NCBI GenBank assembly: GCA_030550515.1
Contig: JAUQPE010000028.1
Span: forward strand, 1-64,000
Direction: 5' to 3'
DNA length: 64,000 nucleotides
Source of the DNA: Thermotogota bacterium
GTDB lineage: Bacteria > Thermotogota > Thermotogae > Thermotogales > Thermotogaceae
Positions 13,832 to 63,691 of this stretch are shown one piece after another; position 1 is the stretch's first letter; each line of letters opens with the position of its first letter. A program made the translations under genes and the position numbers. Below the pieces are notes generated by a model. The model searched no databases, had not been told where the DNA came from, and was given only the letters and a program-made list of their open reading frames with translations.

Positions 13832-15142
13832 TCAGTCCTTCGGGACCACGTAGCCCACGTACCTGTTCTTCGTGAGGAAGTACTGTCTGGCCACCCTTTG
13901 GATGTCTTCCTCGGTGAGTTTCGAAACGTTCTCGATGTACTTCTTGTAGAACAGTGGATCGCCGTACCTTAGGGCACCGAGCACGACCTCGTCCGCCAGT
14001 TCCCTGATGTCCTTGAGCGCGAAGACCAACTGCTTGAGCTTGGACTTCTTCACCTTTTCGAGTTCCTCGGGAGAGACGCCTTCTTTTGCGATCTTTTCGA
14101 GCTCCTCGTCCATCGCCTCTTTGATCTGATCGAGGTCTTCCTCACCGTAAGCGAACGCGTAAACGAGGACGTACCCGGGGATCCTCAAGGTTGTGGTGAA
14201 CCCACCGCAGGCGAGTATCAATCCTCTGTTGTAGTAGAGTTCCCTGTTCACCCTGGAGCTTTCGCTGTTGAGCCAGATGTCGAGGAGCGCCTCGATGGCG
14301 GCGATGTCCTCGTGGTTTCCCTCGGGAACTTGGTAGAGCTGAAGCATCAAGGCAACCCCCGTGAGCCTTGGAAGCCTGAGGATGGTTTCTCCCTCGATCT
14401 TCGCCTGCGTGTACTCGGGCCTTTCGATCCTTGCGGGTTCGTACTCTCCGAAGTATTTCTCCACCAACTCCAGTGCCTCTTGCGGGTCCACGTCACCCGC
14501 GATCGAGACGATGGCGTTGTTGGGTGCGTAGAACATCTCGTAGAAGCTTTTGATGTAATCGTGCGTCATGCTCTCCAGATCTTCCATCCAACCGATGATG
14601 TGGTGCCCCAGGGGAGTCCCACGGAAGGCCTTTCCTTGCAACTCTTCCCAACCGGACATTATGAAGTTGTTCTCGACACTCTGTCTCCTTTCCTGTTTCA
14701 CGACTTCGAGTTCCCTGTAGAAGTCTTCCGGATCGATCTTGAGGTTTCTCATCCTGTCGGCCTCTATAGCCAGCGCGAGTTCGAGCTTTGCGGAAGGGAC
14801 GATCTCGTAGTAGACCGTGTAGTCGTAGTACGTGCCCGCGTTGCACTCCCCACCAACAGAGGTGATCAACTCGTCAATCTTGCCCTTCTCGAGGGCATGT
14901 GTGCCGTTGAACATGGTGTGCTCGAGCAGATGCGCTGCCCCTGTTTTGCCTTCGGTTTCGTCGATGGATCCCACTTTGTACCAGACCTGCACCTTCACCA
15001 AAGGAACGGTGCGATCTTCGAAGATGAAGACTTGAAGGCCGTTGGGCAACACCCGATGAACGTACTCTGGTGTTGGCAGGTTGATCGAGAACGCCAAAAC
15101 GAGTGAGAAAAACAGCACAGTCAAAAGCGACCACTTCCTCAA
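13832..15142 (-). CDS. M16 family zinc peptidase (active subunit)
   Basis: 436 aa with a signal peptide (WSLLTVLFFSLVLAFS). The start of the mature part is VHRVLPNGLQVFIFEDRTVPLVKVQVWYKVGSIDE. The inverted zinc motif HLLEH is in GAAHLLEHTMFNGT (about residue 71), and the distal Glu ligand is in YRELEVVKQERRQ. The second half (ITGDVDP-like SIAGDVDPQEALELVEKYFGEYEP) is the usual M16 repeat. It is the first gene of a two-gene operon with an inactive partner 8 bases downstream. Substrate unknown; peptides outside the cytoplasmic membrane are likely. A TAGAAT lies upstream on the minus strand without a clear -35. Confidence 0.9.
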   Translation of the reverse strand: MRKWSLLTVLFFSLVLAFSINLPTPEYVHRVLPNGLQVFIFEDRTVPLVKVQVWYKVGSIDETEGKTGAAHLLEHTMFNGTHALEKGKIDELITSVGGECNAGTYYDYTVYYEIVPSAKLELALAIEADRMRNLKIDPEDFYRELEVVKQERRQSVENNFIMSGWEELQGKAFRGTPLGHHIIGWMEDLESMTHDYIKSFYEMFYAPNNAIVSIAGDVDPQEALELVEKYFGEYEPARIERPEYTQAKIEGETILRLPRLTGVALMLQLYQVPEGNHEDIAAIEALLDIWLNSESSRVNRELYYNRGLILACGGFTTTLRIPGYVLVYAFAYGEEDLDQIKEAMDEELEKIAKEGVSPEELEKVKKSKLKQLVFALKDIRELADEVVLGALRYGDPLFYKKYIENVSKLTEEDIQRVARQYFLTKNRYVGYVVPKD

Positions 15143-15195
15143 AGCGATCCCTCCTCCCGTGAAGGTTTGTGATGTAAAAATTCTAACAGTAAACC

Positions 15196-15224
15196 TTGAA
15201 CCTTGCGAAACGTTTTGGTAGAAT
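15196..15224 (+). promoter_or_regulatory. Promoter of the aro operon
   Basis: TTGAAC (15196-15201), exactly 17 bases, TAGAAT (15219-15224). Expected transcription start is near 15231, giving a leader of about 210 nt before aroF that contains the leader peptide and attenuator. Confidence 0.85.
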
Positions 15225-15249
15225 ATGTGACAAACAGGGGTGGAAGTGG

Positions 15250-15327
15250 ATGCGTCGATTGGAATGGAAGTTCGAGGTTAACAAGGGTTATTACTATTAT
15301 TGGTTTAACAGGGGCACCTGTCCGTGA
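15250..15327 (+). CDS. Aromatic leader peptide of the aro operon
   Basis: A 25-codon frame, ATG at 15250 to TGA at 15325-15327, begins 19 nt after the expected transcription start, with purine-rich GGGGTGGAAG upstream as ribosome site. Codons 13-19 read Gly-Tyr-Tyr-Tyr-Tyr-Trp-Phe (GGT TAT TAC TAT TAT TGG TTT), and codons 6 and 8 are Trp and Phe. Eight of 25 residues are aromatic. The frame ends inside the first strand of the alternative-hairpin region. The operon makes the common precursor of Tyr, Phe and Trp, so this matches a leader peptide on which ribosomes stall when charged aromatic tRNAs are scarce. The peptide itself is expected to have no other function. Confidence 0.85.
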   Translation: MRRLEWKFEVNKGYYYYWFNRGTCP

Positions 15328-15420
15328 GCGGAACACGCTCCGGGCAGGTGCCTTTTCGGTATCTGCCCGGAGCGGAAGGGATAGAGAAAAGGGGCTCCGG
15401 GCAGCGGAGCCCCTTTTTTT
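15313..15420 (+). promoter_or_regulatory. Transcription attenuator of the aro operon (five pairing segments)
   Basis: Segment 1, GGCACCTG (15313-15320) with GAGCG (15326-15330), pairs with CAGGTGCC (15345-15352) and CGCTC (15336-15340). Segment 2, CGCTCCGGGCAG (15336-15347), is perfectly complementary to segment 3, CTGCCCGGAGCG (15363-15374). Segment 3 can also pair over 11 bases with segment 4, GCTCCGGGCAG (15394-15404). Segment 4 in turn is part of a terminator, GGGGCTCCG (15391-15399) / CGGAGCCCC (15405-15413) plus T7. A ribosome stalled at the Tyr codons leaves 1:2 free to form, so 3:4 forms and the terminator is lost. A ribosome at the stop codon covers segment 1, so 2:3 and then the terminator form. 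Confidence 0.88.
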
Positions 15421-15440
15421 ATAACGGGAGGTGGTGTCGC

Positions 15441-16457
15441 ATGATAGTCGTTCTGAAACCTGGGTCCACGGAGGAAGACGTAGAAAAAGTTGTGAAACTC
15501 GCGGAAAGCTTCAACTTGAGGTGTCACATCTCTAAAGGAGAGGAGAGGACCGTGATCGGGATCATAGGGGACGACAGGTACGTGGTCGCCGACAAGTTCG
15601 AATCGCTCGATTGCGTGGAACGCGTGATGAGGGTGTTGAAGCCCTACAAGTTGGTCTCCAGGGAGTTCCAGCCACACGACACCGTGATCGAGCTGGGAGA
15701 CGTGAAAATCGGAAACGGCTACTTCACCGTGATGGCGGGACCGTGCGCCGTGGAAGGGAGGGAGATGTTGTTCGAGATCGCCCACTTTTTGAGGGAACTC
15801 GGCGTTCGGGTGCTCAGAGGGGGCGCGTACAAACCCCGTACGTCTCCTTACTCGTTCCAGGGCCTTGGAGAGAAGGCGTTAGAATACTTGAGGGAAGCCG
15901 CGAACGAGTACGGGATGTACGTGGTCACGGAGGCCCTCGGGGAAGAGGAACTTCCGAAAGTGGCGGAGTACGCCGACATCATACAGATAGGTGCCCGGAA
16001 CGCCCAGAACTTCAGGTTGCTCTCGAAGGCGGGAAACTTCGGGAAACCCGTCCTCCTGAAGAGAGGCTTCATGAACACGATAGAGGAGTTTCTGCTCTCC
16101 GCCGAGTACGTAGCGGTCTCCGGAAACAAACAGATCATCCTCTGCGAACGCGGTATCAGAACGTTCGAAAACGCCACCAGAAACACTCTTGACATCTCCG
16201 CCGTGCCCATAATAAGGAAAGAGTCGCACCTTCCCATCGTCGTGGACCCCAGTCACTCTGGAGGGAGGAAGGATTTGGTCATTCCCTTGTCGAGGGCTGC
16301 GTTGGCCGTCGGGGCACACGGCGTCATCGTGGAGGTACACCCAGAGCCAGAAAAGGCGTTGTCCGATGGGAAACAGAGTCTCGACTTCAAGTTGTTCGAG
16401 GAGCTCATGAGAGAGTTGAAAGTCCTGGCTGACGCCCTGGGGGTGAGGTTGAATTGA
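15441..16457 (+). CDS. aroF: 3-deoxy-7-phosphoheptulonate (DAHP) synthase
   Basis: Condenses phosphoenolpyruvate and erythrose 4-phosphate, the first step of the shikimate pathway. 338 aa, the length remembered for the Thermotoga maritima enzyme. Residues 1-65 form the ferredoxin-like regulatory domain that binds Tyr/Phe for feedback inhibition. The barrel follows, with VMAGPCAVE, GAYKPRTSPYSFQG, QIGARNAQNF, LLKRG, and VVDPSHSGGRKD as substrate- and metal-binding segments. ATG 15441 behind GGGAGGTGG, 20 bases after the attenuator T-run. It is the first structural gene of the operon, as expected for a feedback- and attenuation-controlled entry enzyme. Confidence 0.97.
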   Translation: MIVVLKPGSTEEDVEKVVKLAESFNLRCHISKGEERTVIGIIGDDRYVVADKFESLDCVERVMRVLKPYKLVSREFQPHDTVIELGDVKIGNGYFTVMAGPCAVEGREMLFEIAHFLRELGVRVLRGGAYKPRTSPYSFQGLGEKALEYLREAANEYGMYVVTEALGEEELPKVAEYADIIQIGARNAQNFRLLSKAGNFGKPVLLKRGFMNTIEEFLLSAEYVAVSGNKQIILCERGIRTFENATRNTLDISAVPIIRKESHLPIVVDPSHSGGRKDLVIPLSRAALAVGAHGVIVEVHPEPEKALSDGKQSLDFKLFEELMRELKVLADALGVRLN

Positions 16458-17215
16458 GGGTCTCCGTGTTGGGAGCGGGATGCATAGGTGGTTCTCTGGC
16501 TTTGAAGTTGAGAAGAGACTTCGAGGTGAGGGTCTTCGACGTGGACGAGGATGTGAGGTCTTCTCTCAAAAGTGAAGGAATCGTAGTTGTAGACCGCCCG
16601 GAAGATCTCTACGACTCGGACCTGCTCGTCCTTGCGGTACCCATGAGCGAAGAAGAGCGATTTCTCAAGGAGACGAGCTTTTCCGGTTTGATGATGGACG
16701 TGGCGAGCGTCAAAACGCCCTTCGTGAGGATCGCGCGGGAGAGAGGTCTCAAACTCGTCGGTGGCCATCCGATGGCGGGCAACGAGAAGAAGGGAAAGGC
16801 CGGTTGGGATCCGAACATGTTCGAAGGGAGACCCTTCTTCCTGTGCGGTCTGGATGGAAGGAGAGTGGAGATCGCTGAGGAAGTCGTGAGGAAGACCGGC
16901 GCCGTTCCCGTTTGGTTGGATCCGGAAGAGCACGACGAGATCGTGGCCGCCGTCAGTCACGTTCAGTACCTGTTATCGCTTGCTGGCAAGTTTGTGGGAA
17001 AGGCGTACGAAGACTTCGCTGGGCCAGGTTACAAATCCACGACGAGGCTCGCCCACCAGAACGTTCAAATGGCCCTCGACATGATGCGGTACAATAGAGA
17101 CAACGTCCTAAAAAACTTGAAAGTGGTGCTCTCTTTCCTGAAAGAAGTGGAATGCACGATAGATGGTGGGGATATGGAACGCCTGGAAAAGCTGATAAGG
17201 GAAGTGATAACGTGA
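16454..17215 (+). CDS. tyrA: Prephenate dehydrogenase
   Basis: NAD(P)-dependent oxidative decarboxylation of prephenate to 4-hydroxyphenylpyruvate, on the tyrosine branch. 253 aa. The Rossmann motif [13 protein letters not shown] is at residue 7. [19 protein letters not shown], and [17 protein letters not shown] carry the conserved Ser, His and Arg/His positions of the family. It has no fused chorismate mutase or ACT domain. Start TTG 16454 inside the aroF stop (TTGA, 4-nt overlap), and it is similarly coupled to aroA downstream. Confidence 0.93.
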
Positions 17216-18474
17216 AGCTGGTTCCGGTGAGAAAGGTGAGGGGAGAGATCTCCGTTCCAACGGACAAGTCCATCACCCACAGGGCCTTGATCTTCGCGGC
17301 GCTCGCCGAAGGGGAGAGTACCCTGTACAACCTCCTCAGGTGCTTGGACACGGAGAGGACGAAGGACGTACTGGAAAAACTCGGAACCAAGTTTGAAGGC
17401 GATTGGACGAAGATGAAGGTGACCCCCGGTGTTTTTCGAACGCCCACCGAACCTCTCTTCTGCGGCAACTCCGGCACCACCACGAGGCTCATGGCGGGCG
17501 TGATCGCGTCGCACGAGATCTTCGCCGTTCTCTACGGCGACGATTCGCTCTCCAGAAGACCCATGGCGAGGGTCATGGAACCGTTAGGGATGATGGGGGC
17601 GAAGTTCCTCGCGCGCGAGAACAACTTTCTGCCCATGGCGATCCAAGGTGGAAGGCTGAAGGGCATAGAGTACGAGTCCAAGGTTGCCAGCGCCCAAGTC
17701 AAGAGCGCGGTGATCATCGCGGGGCTGAGGGCCGAGGGGAAGACGACGGTGGAAGAACCCGTCAAGAGCAGAGACCACACCGAGAGGATGTTGAAGAAAC
17801 TGGGTGCTTCCATTCAGGAAGAGGGGAACAGGGTCACCGTCTGGCCTTCCTCGATCAAGGGGTTCACCATGGAAATCCCAGGTGACGTGTCTTCCGCTTC
17901 CTTCTTCGTGGCTCTTGGGGTCATCCATCCGAACGCCAGGATCGTCGTCAGGGGAGTGGGTTTGAACGAAACGAGGATAGGATTTCTCAAGACGCTCAAG
18001 CTCATGGGAGCGAACGTGGAGTGGCGGGTGGAGAACGAAGATGTGGAACCTATCGGCACCATCGTCGCTGAGAGTTCGCCGAACTTGCGTGGAATAGAAG
18101 TTCCCGTCGAGATGATACCCTCCATGATAGACGAAGTTCCCCTTCTGGCACTCGTTGGGGTGTTTGCGGAAGGTGAAACCGTCGTCAAAGGCGCCGAGGA
18201 GCTGAGGAAGAAGGAATCCGACAGGATACGGGTGGTGGTGGAAAACTTCAGGCGCTTGGGCGTCACGATCGAGGAGTTCCCTGACGGTTTCAGGGTGGTC
18301 GGGAGGCAGAGGATAAGGGGAGGCGTCGTGGATCCAGAGGGCGACCACAGGATGGCCATGATGTTCTCGCTGGCGGGGCTTTTGAGTGAGGAGGGGGTGG
18401 AAGTGAAGGACCACGAGTGCGTTTCCGTGTCTTTCCCGGAATTTTATGGGATACTCGAGAAGGTGATAGCGTGA
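17212..18474 (+). CDS. aroA: 3-phosphoshikimate 1-carboxyvinyltransferase (EPSP synthase)
   Basis: Transfers the enolpyruvyl group of PEP to shikimate 3-phosphate. 420 aa, normal length. Visible motifs are [19 protein letters not shown] (phosphate and shikimate binding), [27 protein letters not shown], and the C-terminal KESDRI and DHRMAMM. GTG at 17212 overlaps the tyrA stop (GTGA). The sequence motif NSGTTTR with Thr rather than Ala after NSG is of the class II type. Confidence 0.96.
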
Positions 18475-19232
18475 AGTTCTGCATCGTGGGTTACCCTGTC
18501 AGGCACAGCATCTCTCCTAGGCTCTACAACGAGTACTTCAGGTTGTTGAACATGCCTCACTTCTACGACTTTGCCGAGATAGCCCCAGATGTCTTCGACG
18601 AGGAAATAAAGAGGGTTCTGAGCGAATGTGATGGTTTCAACGTCACCATACCACACAAAGAGAGGATCATTCCCTACGTGGAACCCACCAAGGAGGCAAC
18701 CAAGATCCAAGCTGTGAACTGTGTGCACGGGAGAAAAGGTTACAACACGGACTGGATCGGCGTGCTGATGTCTCTGGAGGGAACGAGTGTGGAAGAACCT
18801 GTACTCGTCATCGGAGCTGGAGGAACAGCCCGTGCGTTGCTGTACGCGCTACTGGAGATGGGAATCAGGGACATCACCGTCACCAACAGGACACTCGATC
18901 GCGCCAAAAGCCTTGGCTTCCCGGTGAAGGTGGTTCCCTTTGAACGCTTGAAGGAGTCGGTGAGAAACTCCAAGAGCTTGTTCAACACCACCTCCGTCGG
19001 GATGAAGGGAGAGAGGTTCGACCTTTCCGAGGAAGATCTGGCCAACCTCTCCTTGGTCTACGACGTGATCTACTTCGAAACGCCACTTTTGGACCTCGCG
19101 CGACGTGCGGGTGTGAGGCACGTTGTGAGGGGTAACCTCATGTTCTACTACCAGGCCATGGAGAACCTGAAGATATGGGGTCTCTACGACGACGAGACTT
19201 TCAAAAAAGTCTTCGGGGAGGTCCTCTCATGA
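18471..19232 (+). CDS. aroE: Shikimate 5-dehydrogenase
   Basis: NADPH-dependent reduction of 3-dehydroshikimate. 253 aa. Shikimate-binding SISP is in [14 protein letters not shown]. The catalytic Lys is in [10 protein letters not shown] and the paired Asp is in YNTDWIGV. The nucleotide loop is [15 protein letters not shown], followed by VTNRT. GTG 18471 overlaps the aroA stop by 4 nt. The frame is open further upstream but only as a shadow of aroA. Confidence 0.96.
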
Positions 19233-20359
19233 GGCTGACGATCTCCGGGGATTCGCACGGAAAGTACATCGTGGTGGTCTTGGAAGGGTTCCCGGCTGGC
19301 TTCAGGGTGAACGAGCAGAAGGTGGCGAGAGACCTCGAAAGGAGGAGGAACTGCTTTGGAAGAGGCCAGCGCATGAAGCTGGAGGCGGACGAGTTCGAGG
19401 TGGTCTCCGGGGTGTGGAAAGGTGTGACCACGGGGGCGCCGATCACCATCCTCGTCCAAAACAAGGCGGGCAACCCGGTGAAGGAAGTGAGGAGCGTTCC
19501 AAGGCCAGGGCACGTGGACTACGCCGCGTGGATGAGGTATAGACTCCCCGACTTGAACGTGTACGTGGAGCGGGCGAGCGCCAGGTGGACCGTGGGATTG
19601 GTGGCCGTTGGGTCCCTCTTGAAAGACTTCTTGGAGCAGTTCGGGATCAGGATAGTTGGTTTCGTCACCGCGCTTGGCCGTGTGGAGTTGAGGGAGGTTC
19701 CCACCGACTTCGACGAGCTGGTGAGGAGGAGGGACGAGTCTCCCGTCCTCTGCCCGGACCCAAAGGCCACTGAAGAGATGGTGAGGGAGGTAGAAGAGGC
19801 GAGGAATCGAGGTGACACCCTCGGTGGGAAGGTGAGGGTGATCGCAAGAAACGTCCCAGCAGGGCTCGGCGGCTATTCCAACTTCTTCGAAAAACTCGAT
19901 TCCAAGATAGGGGCGATGTTCTTGGCCATCCCCGCGGTGAAAGGCATCCTCATCGGCGAGGAAGAATTGTCCTACGGTCTCTCCTATCTCGACGAGTTCT
20001 GCGTGGAGGATGGAAGGGCGAGGAGGAAGACCAACAGGCTTGGAGGGATAGAGGGAGGGATCAGCAACGGTGAGGACATCGTCGTGAACGTCTTTGTGAA
20101 ACCGATACCCACGACGGGTACCCCACTTCAGTCTGTGGACCTCAGAACTTTGGAGCCAGCAGAATCGCCTTACGTGAGATCGGATGTCACGGCCGTCCCT
20201 CCCGCCTCGGTGGTGTGCGAAGCGGCACTGGCTGTCGTGCTCGCCGATGCCTTGCTCGAACGCTACGGGAACGACAACTTCGAAGATCTGAAGAGGAGGT
20301 TCCAAGATGAAGGTGTTCCTCGTTGGGATGATGGGTTCTGGGAAGAGCACGGTGGGTAG
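19229..20359 (+). CDS. aroC: Chorismate synthase
   Basis: FMN-dependent 1,4-elimination of EPSP to chorismate. 376 aa. Motifs include GDSHG at the start ([14 protein letters not shown]), RRRNCFGRGQRMKLEADEFEVVSGV, GNPVKEVRSVPRPGHVDYAAWM and the C-terminal RSDVTAVPPASVV. The histidine in the opening GDSHG and His in RPGHVD are the conserved catalytic ones. ATG 19229 overlaps the aroE stop (ATGA). The 3' end runs 53 nt into aroK in a different frame, the longest overlap in the operon; the last 17 residues are therefore shared coding space. Confidence 0.96.
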   Translation: MRLTISGDSHGKYIVVVLEGFPAGFRVNEQKVARDLERRRNCFGRGQRMKLEADEFEVVSGVWKGVTTGAPITILVQNKAGNPVKEVRSVPRPGHVDYAAWMRYRLPDLNVYVERASARWTVGLVAVGSLLKDFLEQFGIRIVGFVTALGRVELREVPTDFDELVRRRDESPVLCPDPKATEEMVREVEEARNRGDTLGGKVRVIARNVPAGLGGYSNFFEKLDSKIGAMFLAIPAVKGILIGEEELSYGLSYLDEFCVEDGRARRKTNRLGGIEGGISNGEDIVVNVFVKPIPTTGTPLQSVDLRTLEPAESPYVRSDVTAVPPASVVCEAALAVVLADALLERYGNDNFEDLKRRFQDEGVPRWDDGFWEEHGG

Positions 20360-21788
20360 GAGGTTGGCAGGGATCCTTGGGATGGAGTTCGTCGACATGG
20401 ACGAGGAGATAGAGAAGAGGAAGGGAAAACGCGTGAGGGAGATCTTCGAGGAAGAGGGCGAGCGGACCTTCAGGGAACTCGAGAAGAGACTCTTGAGGGA
20501 GCTGTTGGCGAAAGACAACGTCGTCGTGGCGACGGGTGGAGGCGTGGTTCTAGACCGCGAGAACAGAGAGCTCCTCAAGAAGGAAAAGACGATTTTCCTG
20601 TACGCACCTCCTTCCGTGCTCTTGGAGAGGGTGGATGTGAGGAACAGACCCCTCCTCAAGGATGGAAAGGAGAGGATCTACGAGATCTGGGAAAAGAGAA
20701 AAGCCTTCTACGAGGAGTTCGAGAGGGTGGACACCACGAACCTGAACGAGTGGGAGACCTGCGCAGTGGTCGTCTTGAAAGTCCTCGAAGAAAGGGAGGT
20801 CCTGAACCTGAAAGAACCTCATCCCCTCAGCGTCGTCGTCGGTGGGTTCAAACGGGTGAAGAAAGAAGACTTGGTCTTCACGACGTGGAGGGTGGAGAAG
20901 ATCTTCGAAGGGTTCCTCCCAGAGAGGAGGATCGCGTTTCCCGACGGGGAAGAAGTGAAAACGTTGGAATGGGTCGCCAAGGCGTATTCTGCGCTCGTCG
21001 AGATGGACTTTCCGCGGGGAAAGACGATCGCCGGTGTCGGGGGAGGTGCTCTGACCGATTTTACGGGTTTTGTCGCGAGCACCTTCAAGCGCGGTACTGG
21101 CCTTTCCTTTTATCCCACCACACTTCTCGCCCAAGTCGACGCCTCGGTGGGAGGGAAGAACGCCATAGATTTCGCCGGCGTGAAGAACGTGGTTGGTACT
21201 TTCAGGATGCCGGACGACGTGTTGATAGATCCAGCCGTCACCGTCTCCATGGACCAGGGGCGCTTCGAAGAGGGTGTGGTCGAAGCGCTCAAGATGGTCG
21301 TGATCTCCGGTAGGGGTGTGGAACTCTTCGATGACGTGAGAAAGATCACGCAGGAGAGGAACTTGGAGGTTTTGACCGAACTTGTGAGACTTTCCGTGGA
21401 GGAGAAGGCCCGTGTGGTGCGGGAAGACCCGCACGACAAAGGGTTCAGACACGTGTTGAACCTGGGGCACACGCTGGGACACGTCTTTGAGATGTTGACC
21501 GGGGTGTCGCACGGTCTGGCTGTGGCTTGGGGTTTGGAGAGGGAGGCCTTCTTCTCTTGGAAGAGAGGCCTCACGTCCAAAGAGGTCTACGATTGGATTC
21601 TCGAGAAGGTCCTCCAGATAGCACCCGGTTTGGTGGGAGAGAGGATCGACCGAGAACAGGCCAAAAAACTCATCTTGAACGACAAAAAGATCGCAACTTC
21701 CAAGGTGAGGTTCCCATATCCGAGGAGGATGGGTGAGGTAGACTTTTTGGAGGTGGATCCCCTCGAACTTCTGGAGGTGGTCGCGTGA
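20307..21788 (+). CDS. aroKB: Bifunctional shikimate kinase / 3-dehydroquinate synthase
   Basis: A fusion of 493 aa. Residues 1-150 are shikimate kinase: Walker A GMMGSGKSTVGRRLA, the shikimate-binding DMDEEI, ERTFRELE, and GGGVV. From about residue 165 the protein is dehydroquinate synthase: GVGGGALTDFTGFVASTFKRGT (NAD-binding), PTTLLAQVDASVGGKNAID, NLGHTLGHVFE and LNDKKI, with conserved metal His residues. The same fusion occurs in the Thermotoga maritima aro operon. Start ATG 20307 behind GAGGAGG inside aroC. It couples to aroQ by a 4-nt overlap. Confidence 0.95.
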   Translation: MKVFLVGMMGSGKSTVGRRLAGILGMEFVDMDEEIEKRKGKRVREIFEEEGERTFRELEKRLLRELLAKDNVVVATGGGVVLDRENRELLKKEKTIFLYAPPSVLLERVDVRNRPLLKDGKERIYEIWEKRKAFYEEFERVDTTNLNEWETCAVVVLKVLEEREVLNLKEPHPLSVVVGGFKRVKKEDLVFTTWRVEKIFEGFLPERRIAFPDGEEVKTLEWVAKAYSALVEMDFPRGKTIAGVGGGALTDFTGFVASTFKRGTGLSFYPTTLLAQVDASVGGKNAIDFAGVKNVVGTFRMPDDVLIDPAVTVSMDQGRFEEGVVEALKMVVISGRGVELFDDVRKITQERNLEVLTELVRLSVEEKARVVREDPHDKGFRHVLNLGHTLGHVFEMLTGVSHGLAVAWGLEREAFFSWKRGLTSKEVYDWILEKVLQIAPGLVGERIDREQAKKLILNDKKIATSKVRFPYPRRMGEVDFLEVDPLELLEVVA

Positions 21789-22219
21789 AGATTCTGGTGA
21801 TAAACGGTCCGAACTTGAACATGCTGGGGAAGAGGGACAGGAGCGTTTACGGCGCGCAGAGCTATCAAGACCTCGTTGGAAAGTTGAACGAGTGGGCGGA
21901 GGAAAACGGGGTGGATTTGGAGGTGTTCCAGTCGAACTCTGAAGGAGAAATCGTGGACAGGATACACAGGATGGACTACGACGGCTTGGTGATAAACCCG
22001 GGTGCCTTCACGCACTACAGTTACGCCATCAGGGACGCGCTCGAGATCGTGAAGGTTCCGAAGGTGGAGGTGCACATCTCGAACATCCACGCGAGGGAGG
22101 AGTTCAGAAGGAGGAGCGTCACGGCGGAAGTCTGCGACGGCCAGATCAGCGGGCTTGGGGTGTTCGGTTACCTGTTGGCGCTGGAATACGTGAGGAGAAA
22201 GGTGAGGAGGGAGATCTGA
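21785..22219 (+). CDS. aroQ: 3-dehydroquinate dehydratase, type II
   Basis: Dehydrates 3-dehydroquinate to 3-dehydroshikimate. 144 aa, a type II dodecameric enzyme. NGPNLNMLGKRDRSVYG carries the catalytic Arg and Tyr loop. QSNSEGEIVDRIH, INPGAFTHYSYAIRDAL (with the usual Pro-Gly-Ala and His) and EVHISNIHAREEFRRRS complete the active site. GTG 21785 overlaps aroB's stop. It is the last enzyme needed to make the pathway complete within this operon. Confidence 0.96.
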   Translation: MKILVINGPNLNMLGKRDRSVYGAQSYQDLVGKLNEWAEENGVDLEVFQSNSEGEIVDRIHRMDYDGLVINPGAFTHYSYAIRDALEIVKVPKVEVHISNIHAREEFRRRSVTAEVCDGQISGLGVFGYLLALEYVRRKVRREI

Positions 22220-22813: not shown

Positions 22814-22840
22814 TGGGACGAGGTCAAGTGAATGAGAGAA

Positions 22841-22916
22841 GGGCGATGAGGCTCGCCCAAACCGCCCGGAGAGGGCTGATAGCCTCTACTGGTCGAAAGA
22901 TCAGAGAGGCTTTTTT
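22841..22916 (+). ncRNA. Fluoride riboswitch (crcB motif) with terminator expression platform
   Basis: The aptamer 22841-22891 is nearly the Thermotoga petrophila fluoride aptamer. Hairpin GGGCG (22841-22845)/CGCCC (22854-22858), then AAACC, hairpin GCCC (22864-22867)/GGGC (22873-22876), CTGAT, and CTCTACTG. The pseudoknot pairs GAGGCT (22848-22853) with AGCCTC (22881-22886). Compared with the T. petrophila sequence as I recall it, both strands of this helix have changed compatibly. AGCCTCT (22881-22887) also pairs with AGAGGCT (22905-22911) in a long terminator hairpin (inner CTGGTC-GAAA-GATCAG) followed by TTTTTT. Fluoride binding should lock the pseudoknot, block the terminator and turn the downstream MutS-like genes on. 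Confidence 0.95.
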
Positions 22917-22940
22917 ATTTTTCTTGAGGAGGGAGTGGCG

Positions 22941-24461
22941 TTGTTCCCAAGCGTTCTGTTCAAGGATGCGAAAGCCCTCGAAAGTGTGAAAGTATCGGAA
23001 GAGGCCTTCGAAGACCTCTTCCTGGGACGGTTGATAGACCTGACGGTTAAGGGTAGGGAGAGGTACGATCTGAAACCGTTCTTCACGATGCCCGTCCGAG
23101 ACGAGGAAACCATAGTCTACAGACAGGAGGTGGCAAGGGACCTGGAAGATCCCGAGGTTCGAAAGGTCGTGTTGGAGTTCTCGAAAGGCATGGTGGCGGT
23201 CCACCAATACCTTCAGATGCTGGAGAGGTTGGACTACGAGTACAACAAGAAGGGATGGTTTTTGGAAGCCGTCCTCGAGTACTGCAGGACGGTCAAGGTG
23301 TTCTCCGAGTCCCTCGAGAGGGTGGGCTTGCGTTCGGAGGGATTGAAGAGGATCAGAGAGTACCTGATAGGTTATGCGAGATCTCCGGAGTTTTCATCCC
23401 TCTTCGAGGAGGCCCTTCGGGTGAAGGAAGGACTTTCTCGGGTGAGGTACTGTCTCATCGTGGAACCTGGGAAGTTCAGTGTGAAGCCCTACAAGGGCGA
23501 GAAAGACTACGCCGTTGAAATTGAAGCGTTCTTCTCAAAGTTCAAGGAAGAGGATCGAATCGGTGAGTATTCCTTCGACCTGGTCAAGGGAATTGGCATG
23601 AGCCACGTCGAAGCGAAGATCCTGGACTTTGTGAGAAGGTTGTATCCGGAACCGTTTGAGGAGTTGGACACGTTCTGCGAAAACCATCGCGGTTTCCTGG
23701 ACGAGGTGATCTTGAACTTCGAGAGAGAGGTACAGTTCTTCTTGGCCTACCTGGACTTCATCGAACCTTTGAGGGAGAGAGGTCTTCCTTTCTGCTATCC
23801 AGAAGTTCGCACCTCCGTAAGGGACGAGTTCGTGGAGGACGGGTTCGACCTGATGTTGGTCCACAGCTTGACGGGGAAGATCGTCACCAACAGTTACCGT
23901 TTGGATGGGATAGAGAGGGTGATAGTGGTCACAGGCCCAAATCAAGGCGGCAAGACGTCCTTCGCCAGGATGGTAGGGCAGATCCATTACCTGGCCTGCC
24001 TTGGCCTTCCCGTACCCGCTCGCAGGGCCAAACTTTTCCTCGTTGACGCTGTACACACCCATTTCGAGAGGGAAGAGCACGTTCAGAACGTGAGAAGCAA
24101 GTTGGAAGACGACCTCTTGAGGATGAAGAGCATCATCGACTCCCTGACTCCCAACAGCCTCGTAATCTTGAACGAAGCGTTCTCTTCCGCCACTCTCCGC
24201 GATTCTTTGGACATAAGTTTGAGAGTGCTCGAAAAGTTATTGAAGATCGATTGTTTCGTCGTGTGGGTGACGTTCCTGGACGAACTCTCCCGAGTGAGCG
24301 AGAAGGTGGTGAGCATGGTTGCCCTCGTCTCTCCACAAGATCCAACCGTGCGGACGTTCAAGGTGGTGAGAAAGAGGGCGGACGGTCGCGCTTACGCCCT
24401 GTCGCTTGCAAGAAAGTACGGGCTCACCTACGAAGAGGTCAGGAGGAGGATACGGAGATGA
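22941..24461 (+). CDS. MutS domain V-like ATPase, first of a tandem pair
   Basis: 506 aa. The C-terminal third is a MutS-type ABC ATPase: Walker A VTGPNQGGKTSFARMVGQIHYLA (about residue 335), an ABC-like signature region KLEDDLLRMKSII, Walker B SLVILNEAFSS, and a switch region VVWVTFLDEL. The N-terminal part is helical and similar to the MutS lever/core. The mismatch-recognition domain (Phe-x-Glu) is absent, so it is not a repair MutS. TTG 22941 is chosen because AGGAGGG ends 7 bases before it; GTG 22935 is too close. It is the first gene after the fluoride riboswitch and overlaps the next by 4 nt. Confidence 0.85.
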   Translation: MFPSVLFKDAKALESVKVSEEAFEDLFLGRLIDLTVKGRERYDLKPFFTMPVRDEETIVYRQEVARDLEDPEVRKVVLEFSKGMVAVHQYLQMLERLDYEYNKKGWFLEAVLEYCRTVKVFSESLERVGLRSEGLKRIREYLIGYARSPEFSSLFEEALRVKEGLSRVRYCLIVEPGKFSVKPYKGEKDYAVEIEAFFSKFKEEDRIGEYSFDLVKGIGMSHVEAKILDFVRRLYPEPFEELDTFCENHRGFLDEVILNFEREVQFFLAYLDFIEPLRERGLPFCYPEVRTSVRDEFVEDGFDLMLVHSLTGKIVTNSYRLDGIERVIVVTGPNQGGKTSFARMVGQIHYLACLGLPVPARRAKLFLVDAVHTHFEREEHVQNVRSKLEDDLLRMKSIIDSLTPNSLVILNEAFSSATLRDSLDISLRVLEKLLKIDCFVVWVTFLDELSRVSEKVVSMVALVSPQDPTVRTFKVVRKRADGRAYALSLARKYGLTYEEVRRRIRR

Positions 24462-62880: not shown

Positions 62881-62939
62881 ATCCAAACTCTCTCCTCCAC
62901 AGGATTTATCGACCCAAAGGCGGTTTCTTTGAGTTGGTA

Positions 62940-62945
62940 TATAAT
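62940..62945 (+). promoter_or_regulatory. -10 element for the DUF218 gene
   Basis: Perfect TATAAT at 62940-62945, 39 bases before the TTG start; no convincing -35. Divergent from the FliK-like gene. Confidence 0.5.
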
Positions 62946-62983
62946 CTCCTCGGTGCCGGAAGAGAGCGAAGGAGGGGACAAGG

Positions 62984-63691
62984 TTGGTCTTCCAAAAAAT
63001 CTTCTCTTACCTTTTGGTACCACCAGGTATCCTTCTGCTTTTGGTACTTTTGGGACTCTTCGTAAGAAAGAAAAGGTCTTTTTCACTTTTTTTGGCTCTC
63101 GTGCTGTACGTCTTGAGCAGTTACCTTGGTGAATTGATCTTTCTCTATCCCTTGGAAAGAGGGGTGGTGCTCTCTCCTTCCCTTCCTTTGAACGCTTACG
63201 TCGTGATTCTGGGTGGGGGGATAGAGAGGAATACGAGGATGGGGGATCAACCTGGAATCGCGACATCGACGAGGATCTTGGCTGGGGCGAAATTGTACAG
63301 AACTTTACGAACCAAAGTAGTCGTAACGGGAGGAAGTCTCGTGAAGGGAGTACCTGAAGCCTGGGTGATGAGGGAAGAACTGATCGAACTTGGAGTACCA
63401 GAAGACGACATTTTGGTGGAGGACAAATCCAAGAACACTTACGAGAACGCAAAAAACACGAGAGAACTCGTTGGAGATAGCCCAATCATTCTTGTAACCG
63501 ATTCCCTACACATGCGTCGGGCGCTGACAACTTTCAGGAAGTTCTTCAGGGAGGTCCACCCTCACCCAGCCCTCTTCTTCTTTGGGGATCCAGAATTCGT
63601 GGACTTCCTTCCCAACGCCTACTCCCTCTACTTGAACAGCAGGGCCATCTACGAATGGATGGGGATGATCTGGTACAGGCTCAAGCGGTGA
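62984..63691 (+). CDS. DUF218 (YdcF/ElyC family) membrane protein
   Basis: 235 aa. Two N-terminal membrane segments (about 8-26 and 33-55), then an outside domain with the DUF218 signature: YVVILGGGIERN, TRILAGAKLYRTLRTKVVVTGG, EDDILVEDKSKNTYENAKNTREL and ILVTDSLHMRRALTTFRK. The ElyC members affect cell-wall lipid carrier use; here the role is unknown. TTG 62984 behind GGAGGGG. It is followed 18 bases on by a membrane sensor gene. Confidence 0.87.
   Translation: MVFQKIFSYLLVPPGILLLLVLLGLFVRKKRSFSLFLALVLYVLSSYLGELIFLYPLERGVVLSPSLPLNAYVVILGGGIERNTRMGDQPGIATSTRILAGAKLYRTLRTKVVVTGGSLVKGVPEAWVMREELIELGVPEDDILVEDKSKNTYENAKNTRELVGDSPIILVTDSLHMRRALTTFRKFFREVHPHPALFFFGDPEFVDFLPNAYSLYLNSRAIYEWMGMIWYRLKR

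Follow-up and report, generated by a model that had tools for sequence, protein, structure and literature searches.

We find that the region upstream of aroF in the window, a 64,000-nt stretch of DNA from a Thermotogota bacterium, very probably acts as a ribosome-mediated transcription attenuator. We base this assignment on the anatomy of the region, its conservation, covariation in one of its helices (1:2) and folding under ribosome masking, and from these we infer leader translation, ribosome stalling, termination and a physiological response. On a wider scale, we are inclined, with slightly better than even confidence, to think that in nearly the whole phylum Thermotogota the entry step of the shikimate pathway is governed by aromatic attenuators. 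These would comprise at least four architectures with one fixed geometry, in which the codon cluster lies one ribosome-front ahead of the antiterminator strand, and the form in the window would be inverted, such that the operon is shut down only by a ribosome that has arrived at the stop codon.

The leader region and the operon behind it

The gap of about 300 nt between a divergent peptidase gene and aroF (15143-15440) holds the whole device on the plus strand (Table 1). The earlier note had described a near-consensus promoter followed by a 25-codon frame with a run of four Tyr codons, Trp and Phe, and the sequence confirms both; the frame begins with ATG at 15250, ends with TGA at 15325-15327 and contains two further aromatic codons, Trp6 and Phe8. 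Transcription would start near 15230, about 20 nt from the leader ORF. A counterpart of the promoter (TTGATT-17-TAGAAT) is present in Thermotoga-type relatives (L012-L018), and the relatives' Shine-Dalgarno at the matching place reads AGGGGTGA or AGAGGTGA.

The terminator consists of a hairpin at 15390-15413 and a T7 tail at 15414-15420. A simple terminator scan of the window did not list 15390-15420, which we attribute to the scan's loop and tail rules, as hairpin and tail are plain in the sequence. Since the upstream gene is divergent, the plus-strand promoter and terminator have no other gene to serve; for the same reason, we rejected the terminator as a property of the upstream gene. As expected of a leader-peptide attenuator, a short ORF with its ribosome binding site lies between promoter and terminator, and the intrinsic terminator lies ahead of the first structural gene.

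Table 1. Features of the aroF leader region and the genes around it (window coordinates)
Feature	Position	Strand	Basis or remark
Divergent peptidase gene	13832-15142	minus	upstream neighbour of the leader region
Sigma-70-type promoter, TTGAAC-17-TAGAAT, TG before the -10	15196-15224	+	sequence; promoter scan; shared elements in relatives
Shine-Dalgarno of the leader ORF, AGGGGTGG	15236-15243	+	sequence
Leader peptide ORF, 25 codons, MRRLEWKFEVNKGYYYYWFNRGTCP and stop	15250-15327	+	sequence; leaders in 46/54 testable genomes of the phylum
Control codons Tyr14-Tyr15-Tyr16-Tyr17-Trp18-Phe19	15289-15306	+	every leader found retains the aromatic cluster
Segment 1, final four sense codons up to the stop codon	15313-15324	+	folding; 1:2 covariation
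Segment 2, partner of segment 1 or 3	15336-15352	+	folding; 1:2 covariation
Segment 3, partner of segment 2 or of 4 (antiterminator)	15363-15374	+	folding
Segment 4, terminator 5' arm and loop, or partner of segment 3	15391-15404	+	folding
Intrinsic terminator, hairpin AGGGGCTCC / GGAGCCCCT (segments 4:5) and T7	15390-15420	+	sequence; folding; terminator in 32/32 leaders examined
aroF, DAHP synthase with ferredoxin-like regulatory domain	15441-16457	+	TIGR01361; PF00793 and PF18152
tyrA, prephenate dehydrogenase	16454-17215	+	NCBIfam/Pfam
aroA, EPSP synthase	17212-18474 (start approximate)	+	NCBIfam/Pfam
aroE, shikimate dehydrogenase	18468-19232	+	NCBIfam/Pfam
aroC, chorismate synthase	19229-20359	+	NCBIfam/Pfam
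aroKB, shikimate kinase / 3-dehydroquinate synthase fusion	20307-21788	+	NF010556
aroQ, type II 3-dehydroquinate dehydratase	21785-22219	+	NCBIfam/Pfam

Domain analysis with NCBIfam and Pfam bears out the seven-gene operon that had been placed under the leader: the seven shikimate/tyrosine genes are consecutive, with ends that overlap or abut. AroF is 88% identical to Thermotoga-type orthologues and matches PDB entries 1rzm and 3pg9 over its full length. We take these structures to be the Thermotoga maritima DAHP synthase, feedback-inhibited by tyrosine, and tyrosine is the amino acid that dominates the leader codons. We also note a fluoride riboswitch (RF01734) at 22833-22895 of the window, before a gene with a MutS domain V (22935-24461).

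Six consecutive aromatic codons in an ORF were seen in none of 3000 dinucleotide shuffles of the region, and five in a single one. Scanning the 64 kb in six frames on both strands revealed two other ORFs with at least five aromatic codons in a row; the one of these inspected, on the plus strand at 62933-63065, lies in a membrane-protein gene but in the wrong frame. Of 32 leaders, 29 have four or more aromatic codons within a stretch of six, against 3.5 expected from shuffles. A chance origin of the run was therefore rejected on the shuffles and the scan, and the ORF is enriched in end-product codons beyond chance, an enrichment that is conserved.

Aromatic leaders and their RNA architectures across the Thermotogota

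Upstream regions of AroF were gathered first from the order and then from 103 genomes of the phylum. Testable genomes numbered 54, namely the 57 with TIGR01361 above cut-off plus G019 (partial, below cut-off), less four whose contig ends at the gene. A short ORF with aromatic codons (once with Trp only) and a terminator precede aroF, or a leading aroH, in 46 of these 54 genomes, from nine families. Examples are MRCGRIICLKSIEHNYYYFWFNRGTCP (L012), GYFWFYYTSTCP (L041), AYYYYYNNRSICL (L058), NEYYYYYWFRKTPTLVPLLCRTS (L032), NYYYYGRTRFVVCDL (L056) and NNFWWFYYAGVHPRPPAVLR (L033). In the two genomes where aroH comes first, the leader is placed ahead of aroH (GFWFYSYDGTCP in L035; EYYYYFRWGVYP in L036). 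Genome G097 encodes two copies of AroF, and in the leader of one of them (L053; VISWWNSKTSDRWL; MKYNINKKLNNVISWWNSKTSDRWL) Trp codons take the place of Tyr codons, which suggests Trp-specific control of an isoenzyme. An intrinsic terminator follows every leader examined (32/32). No leader is visible in eight of the 54 genomes with this DAHP synthase (G048, G082, G090 and five of one genus), and a search of viral contigs found no AroF relative. We further note that a Chloroflexota (Anaerolineaceae) MAG carries MLKSTQWFAFYFYYGFRNSVAAGGA and then a strong terminator before aroH-aroF (L008:1904-2036); the arrangement is therefore not limited to the Thermotogota.

Sequence comparison points to at least four RNA architectures of the aromatic leader in the phylum. 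Type A is the architecture with five segments seen in the window; it is shared by four families (f1, f7, f9 and f11), and its stop codon abuts segment 1 (0-3 nt). Across type A, 98.7% of cells in the 1:2 helix are paired, and five of 12 pairs show changes on both sides (G-C to A-U, C-G to U-A etc.). None of 500 shuffles equalled the helix in percentage paired or in covariation score, and the pairing is lost when the partner strand is slid. These compensatory changes alter the last residues of the leader from GTCP to RSIC or MSIC while the pairing persists; it is therefore the RNA that is kept. Pair counts for 2:3 and 3:4 were left out of the covariation evidence because the MAFFT alignment puts segment 3 of family f9 one base out of register. 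In type C (family f8), a strand within the ORF, CCCGRUUURUGGU, pairs with ACCAYAAAUCGGG at the foot of the terminator; this helix is 95.7% paired, and two of its pairs have changed in both strands. With nine sequences only, this signal is weaker than that of type A. In types B and D (both in f3 and f10), other sequences serve the same purpose, and L019 (f2) represents a further variant architecture.

All types tested share one spacing: counted from the first base of the nearest preceding aromatic codon, the first strand of the antiterminator begins 6-13 nt downstream, roughly where the front edge of a ribosome waiting on that codon would lie. The value of 33 obtained for L057 reflects a wrongly picked cluster, the Tyr run lying at codons 19-21. 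The earlier note had held that homologous leaders keeping the hairpins but losing the frame or the aromatic codons would speak against attenuation. The comparison reveals the opposite: among the leaders found, hairpins vary and codons persist.

In type A, a CUCCGGGCAG core is well conserved across families, as a protein site might be, and a protein (a repressor-type RNA-binding protein, TRAP-like) rather than the ribosome could thus be thought to select the fold. We regard this as very improbable. The core occurs in segments 2 and 4 and its complement in segments 3 and 5, so that pairing alone locks it in place; moreover, the other architectures are built from unrelated RNA sequence, yet they retain the aromatic codon cluster at its usual distance from the antiterminator.

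Short ORFs ending in Trp runs (NIINWWWHL, NNGWWYRARC, NNCWWHRERPSSL) and followed by terminators were also observed upstream of trpE, in L083, L086, L087 and L092 (f10), L081 (f8) and L082 (f5). Judging from these sequences, the trp operon of Thermotogota also seems to be subject to leader attenuation. No Trp leader was found before trpE in the window's genome or in one Thermotoga-type genome read (L074, L076). The Trp leader of L081, about 280 nt upstream of trpE, includes a T-box-like string, GGUGGUACCGCG...CGCGGUUUUUU, with no match to the T-box model.

T-boxes control aromatic operons in Firmicutes. Together with the GGUGGUACCGCG string of L081, this could argue that a tRNA-sensing T-box riboswitch or another aptamer controls the aroF terminator and that the ORF is incidental, a reading we consider extremely improbable. 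No Rfam family reaches threshold over the leader, and none, T-box (RF00230) included, is significant in 20 relatives at E<=1; T-box, riboswitch and known leader families were rejected on this ground. In addition, the roughly 20 nt between the inferred transcription start and the ORF leave no room for a T-box stem I, and the reading frame of the aromatic codons is preserved even as the RNA that separates the start codon from the cluster diverges.

Alternative helices and the position of the ribosome

The four helices listed in the earlier note were recovered, and its base-pair counts proved right or conservative. At 37 C, helix 1:2 has 17 bp with one bulge (-34.8 kcal/mol), helix 2:3 has 17 bp (12 perfect Watson-Crick and five more; -35.6 kcal/mol), helix 3:4 has 11 bp (-23.0 kcal/mol), and helix 4:5 has 9 bp plus flanking A-U pairs (-23.4 kcal/mol) before T7. 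The paired sums at this temperature are near equal, -59.0 kcal/mol for 2:3 and 4:5 versus -57.8 for 1:2 and 3:4, which is what a switch requires of two alternative folds.

For folding under ribosome masking, a footprint from -13 to +15 of the P-site was masked and the transcript was folded to the end of segment 4, just before the terminator can close. With no ribosome, or with one stalled on Tyr14-Tyr17, 3:4 reached 0.84-0.90 and 2:3 about 0; with no ribosome and segment 4 out, 1:2 reached about 1.0 and 3:4 0.86-0.89. A stall on Trp18 resembled the Tyr stalls (3:4) for a front edge up to P+15, a stall on Phe19 with the front edge at P+15 gave mostly 2:3 (0.85-0.91), and a ribosome at the stop codon gave 2:3 at about 0.8-1.0. 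These outcomes held at all three temperatures used (37, 65 and 75 C). When the front edge was set between +10 and +18, the tipping codon shifted between Arg21/Asn20 and Trp18 and the picture stayed unchanged; for front edges no further than +12, Phe19 joins the stall codons. In the masked folds, a stalled or absent ribosome therefore means read-through and a completed leader means termination. Both the masked folding and the covariation indicate, in silico, a mutually exclusive antiterminator that depends on ribosome position.

Comparison and masked folding together support the central proposal of the earlier note, in which stalling gives 1:2 and 3:4 with read-through and completion gives 2:3 with termination. 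Its further claim, that the leader senses all three aromatic amino acids at once, holds for the Tyr and Trp18 stalls and is too strong for Phe19, which the model makes a borderline signal. Tyr is probably the main signal, with Trp second and Phe weakest. Stalls on Trp6 and Phe8 could act too in the model, because any upstream stall leaves segment 1 free.

We propose that RNA polymerase would start near 15230 and that a ribosome would begin the 25-codon leader. When charged aromatic tRNAs are short, the ribosome would pause at the Tyr/Trp codons, its leading edge stopping just before segment 1; segment 1, being free, would pair with segment 2, segment 3 would be left with only segment 4, and the terminator 4:5 would be blocked. 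With 3:4 formed, the polymerase would read into aroF-tyrA-aroA-aroE-aroC-aroKB-aroQ. When aromatic tRNAs are charged, the ribosome would reach the stop codon, which abuts segment 1, and mask that segment, so that 2:3 would pair, 4:5 would form and transcription would end at T7. In the model, an untranslated leader should read through, a default-ON state opposite to that of E. coli trp.

Full-length equilibrium folding gives a different balance. For the window, the terminator is the favoured fold in every state at 37 C; at 65 C, its share drops only to about 0.62-0.8 with the ribosome absent or stalled on Tyr; the Thermotoga-type leaders L012 and L015 show a full switch at 65 C (0.02-0.09 vs 0.99). 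As the terminator is favoured at full-length equilibrium, switching has to depend on which helices fold first. In transcripts that do not yet include segment 4, helix 2:3 is often more stable than 1:2 although segment 1 is free, and kinetics must therefore favour 1:2. Whole-leader equilibrium folding was too blunt at 37 C; it was replaced by helix-level folding of transcripts of intermediate length, with a model that is static.

The almost constant preference for the terminator at 37 C equilibrium would also fit a fixed partial terminator with constant read-through, or an upstream ORF that acts on aroF translation. We judge this very improbable, since a constant terminator leaves unexplained (I) the Tyr/Trp/Phe codons in 46 genomes, (II) the compensatory changes in 1:2, which lie outside the terminator, and (III) the placement of the stop codon right next to segment 1. 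Moreover, 113 nt separate the end of the leader from aroF, and translational coupling would not extend over such a distance.

Shut-off would have to take another course in types B and D (e.g., L024, L031, L033 and L038). There, the leader stop lies 18-35 nt past the antiterminator strand, and in the static model a ribosome at the stop consequently does not mask the antiterminator. These leaders would have to be shut off while the ribosome is still passing, or via a competitor.

Comparison with known leader-peptide systems

Leader attenuation, mostly described in Proteobacteria and Actinobacteria, would thus span most families of a deep-branching, largely thermophilic phylum, with control codons kept while the RNA was rewritten across it. 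If the default is ON as predicted, deletion of the start codon of the leader should increase expression of the operon rather than reduce it, and the roughly 46 leaders offer material for the study of attenuator evolution and of RNA switches at high temperature. The abstract of a 2004 survey by Vitreschak et al. (FEMS Microbiol Lett) reportedly names Thermotogales among the groups with candidate attenuators. A 2004 prediction for T. maritima, where a leader of type A is expected, may therefore exist, possibly for this very leader, and a first prediction would then not be new. Pending that survey, we regard the system as one of a known kind, with the predicted inverted default and the phylum-wide distribution as its new aspects.

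Among the papers searched, we found no description of leader-peptide attenuation for Thermotogota, 'ribosome-mediated attenuation' with 'Thermotoga' returning only PMC8632094, and the main text of a T. maritima multi-omics paper mentions neither attenuation nor TM0343, the aroF locus (PMC3636130). The statement that such attenuation is known mainly from Proteobacteria was incomplete: it is also known from Actinobacteria, including the aromatic leader aroR (PMC11802643), and has been proposed in Acholeplasma before aroF (PMC8632094). A 2010 survey was aware of no leader-peptide system outside Proteobacteria and Actinobacteria before adding Firmicutes (PMC2965389), and PMC2965389 and PMC5794164 document leader peptides in these three phyla.

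The Rfam leader families (e.g., Phe_leader, RF01859) are alike in general layout, with no match at gathering score in the window or its relatives; weak sub-threshold matches to Phe_leader occur in L019, L086 and L092. We also observed a sub-threshold match to HEARO RNA at L056:1193-1409 (minus strand; 46.5 bits versus a gathering score of 83). Similarly to the leaders described here, the Acholeplasma uORFC-13-1 motif places a short ORF with Phe codon(s) and an apparent terminator before aroF (PMC8632094), but it belongs to another phylum, is a different RNA with weaker codon enrichment and has its own second helix. The his attenuator of Salmonella and E. coli shares an extra hairpin and a longer chain of exclusive segments (PMC1183508), a likeness of layout, whereas its untranslated default is opposite to the one predicted here.

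By function, the nearest analogue is the aroR leader (Phe-Tyr-Phe) before aroF in C. glutamicum (Neshat et al. 2014, as summarised in PMC11802643), followed by the pheA and trp attenuators of E. coli. According to that summary, aroR likewise places consecutive aromatic codons before an operon with a DAHP synthase gene, and stalling raises transcription; it differs in belonging to the Actinobacteria and in responding to Phe, not Tyr, whereas the leader in the window has a Tyr-rich run. With E. coli trp and pheA, our leader shares the richness in end-product codons, the alternative hairpins and the intrinsic terminator (PMC1183508). In E. coli trp, a stalled ribosome masks segment 1, and an untranslated leader forms I:II and III:IV and terminates (PMC1183508). 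Here, in contrast, a stall would leave segment 1 free, there is one more segment, and the untranslated leader, which terminates in the trp/his sub-type, reads through in silico.
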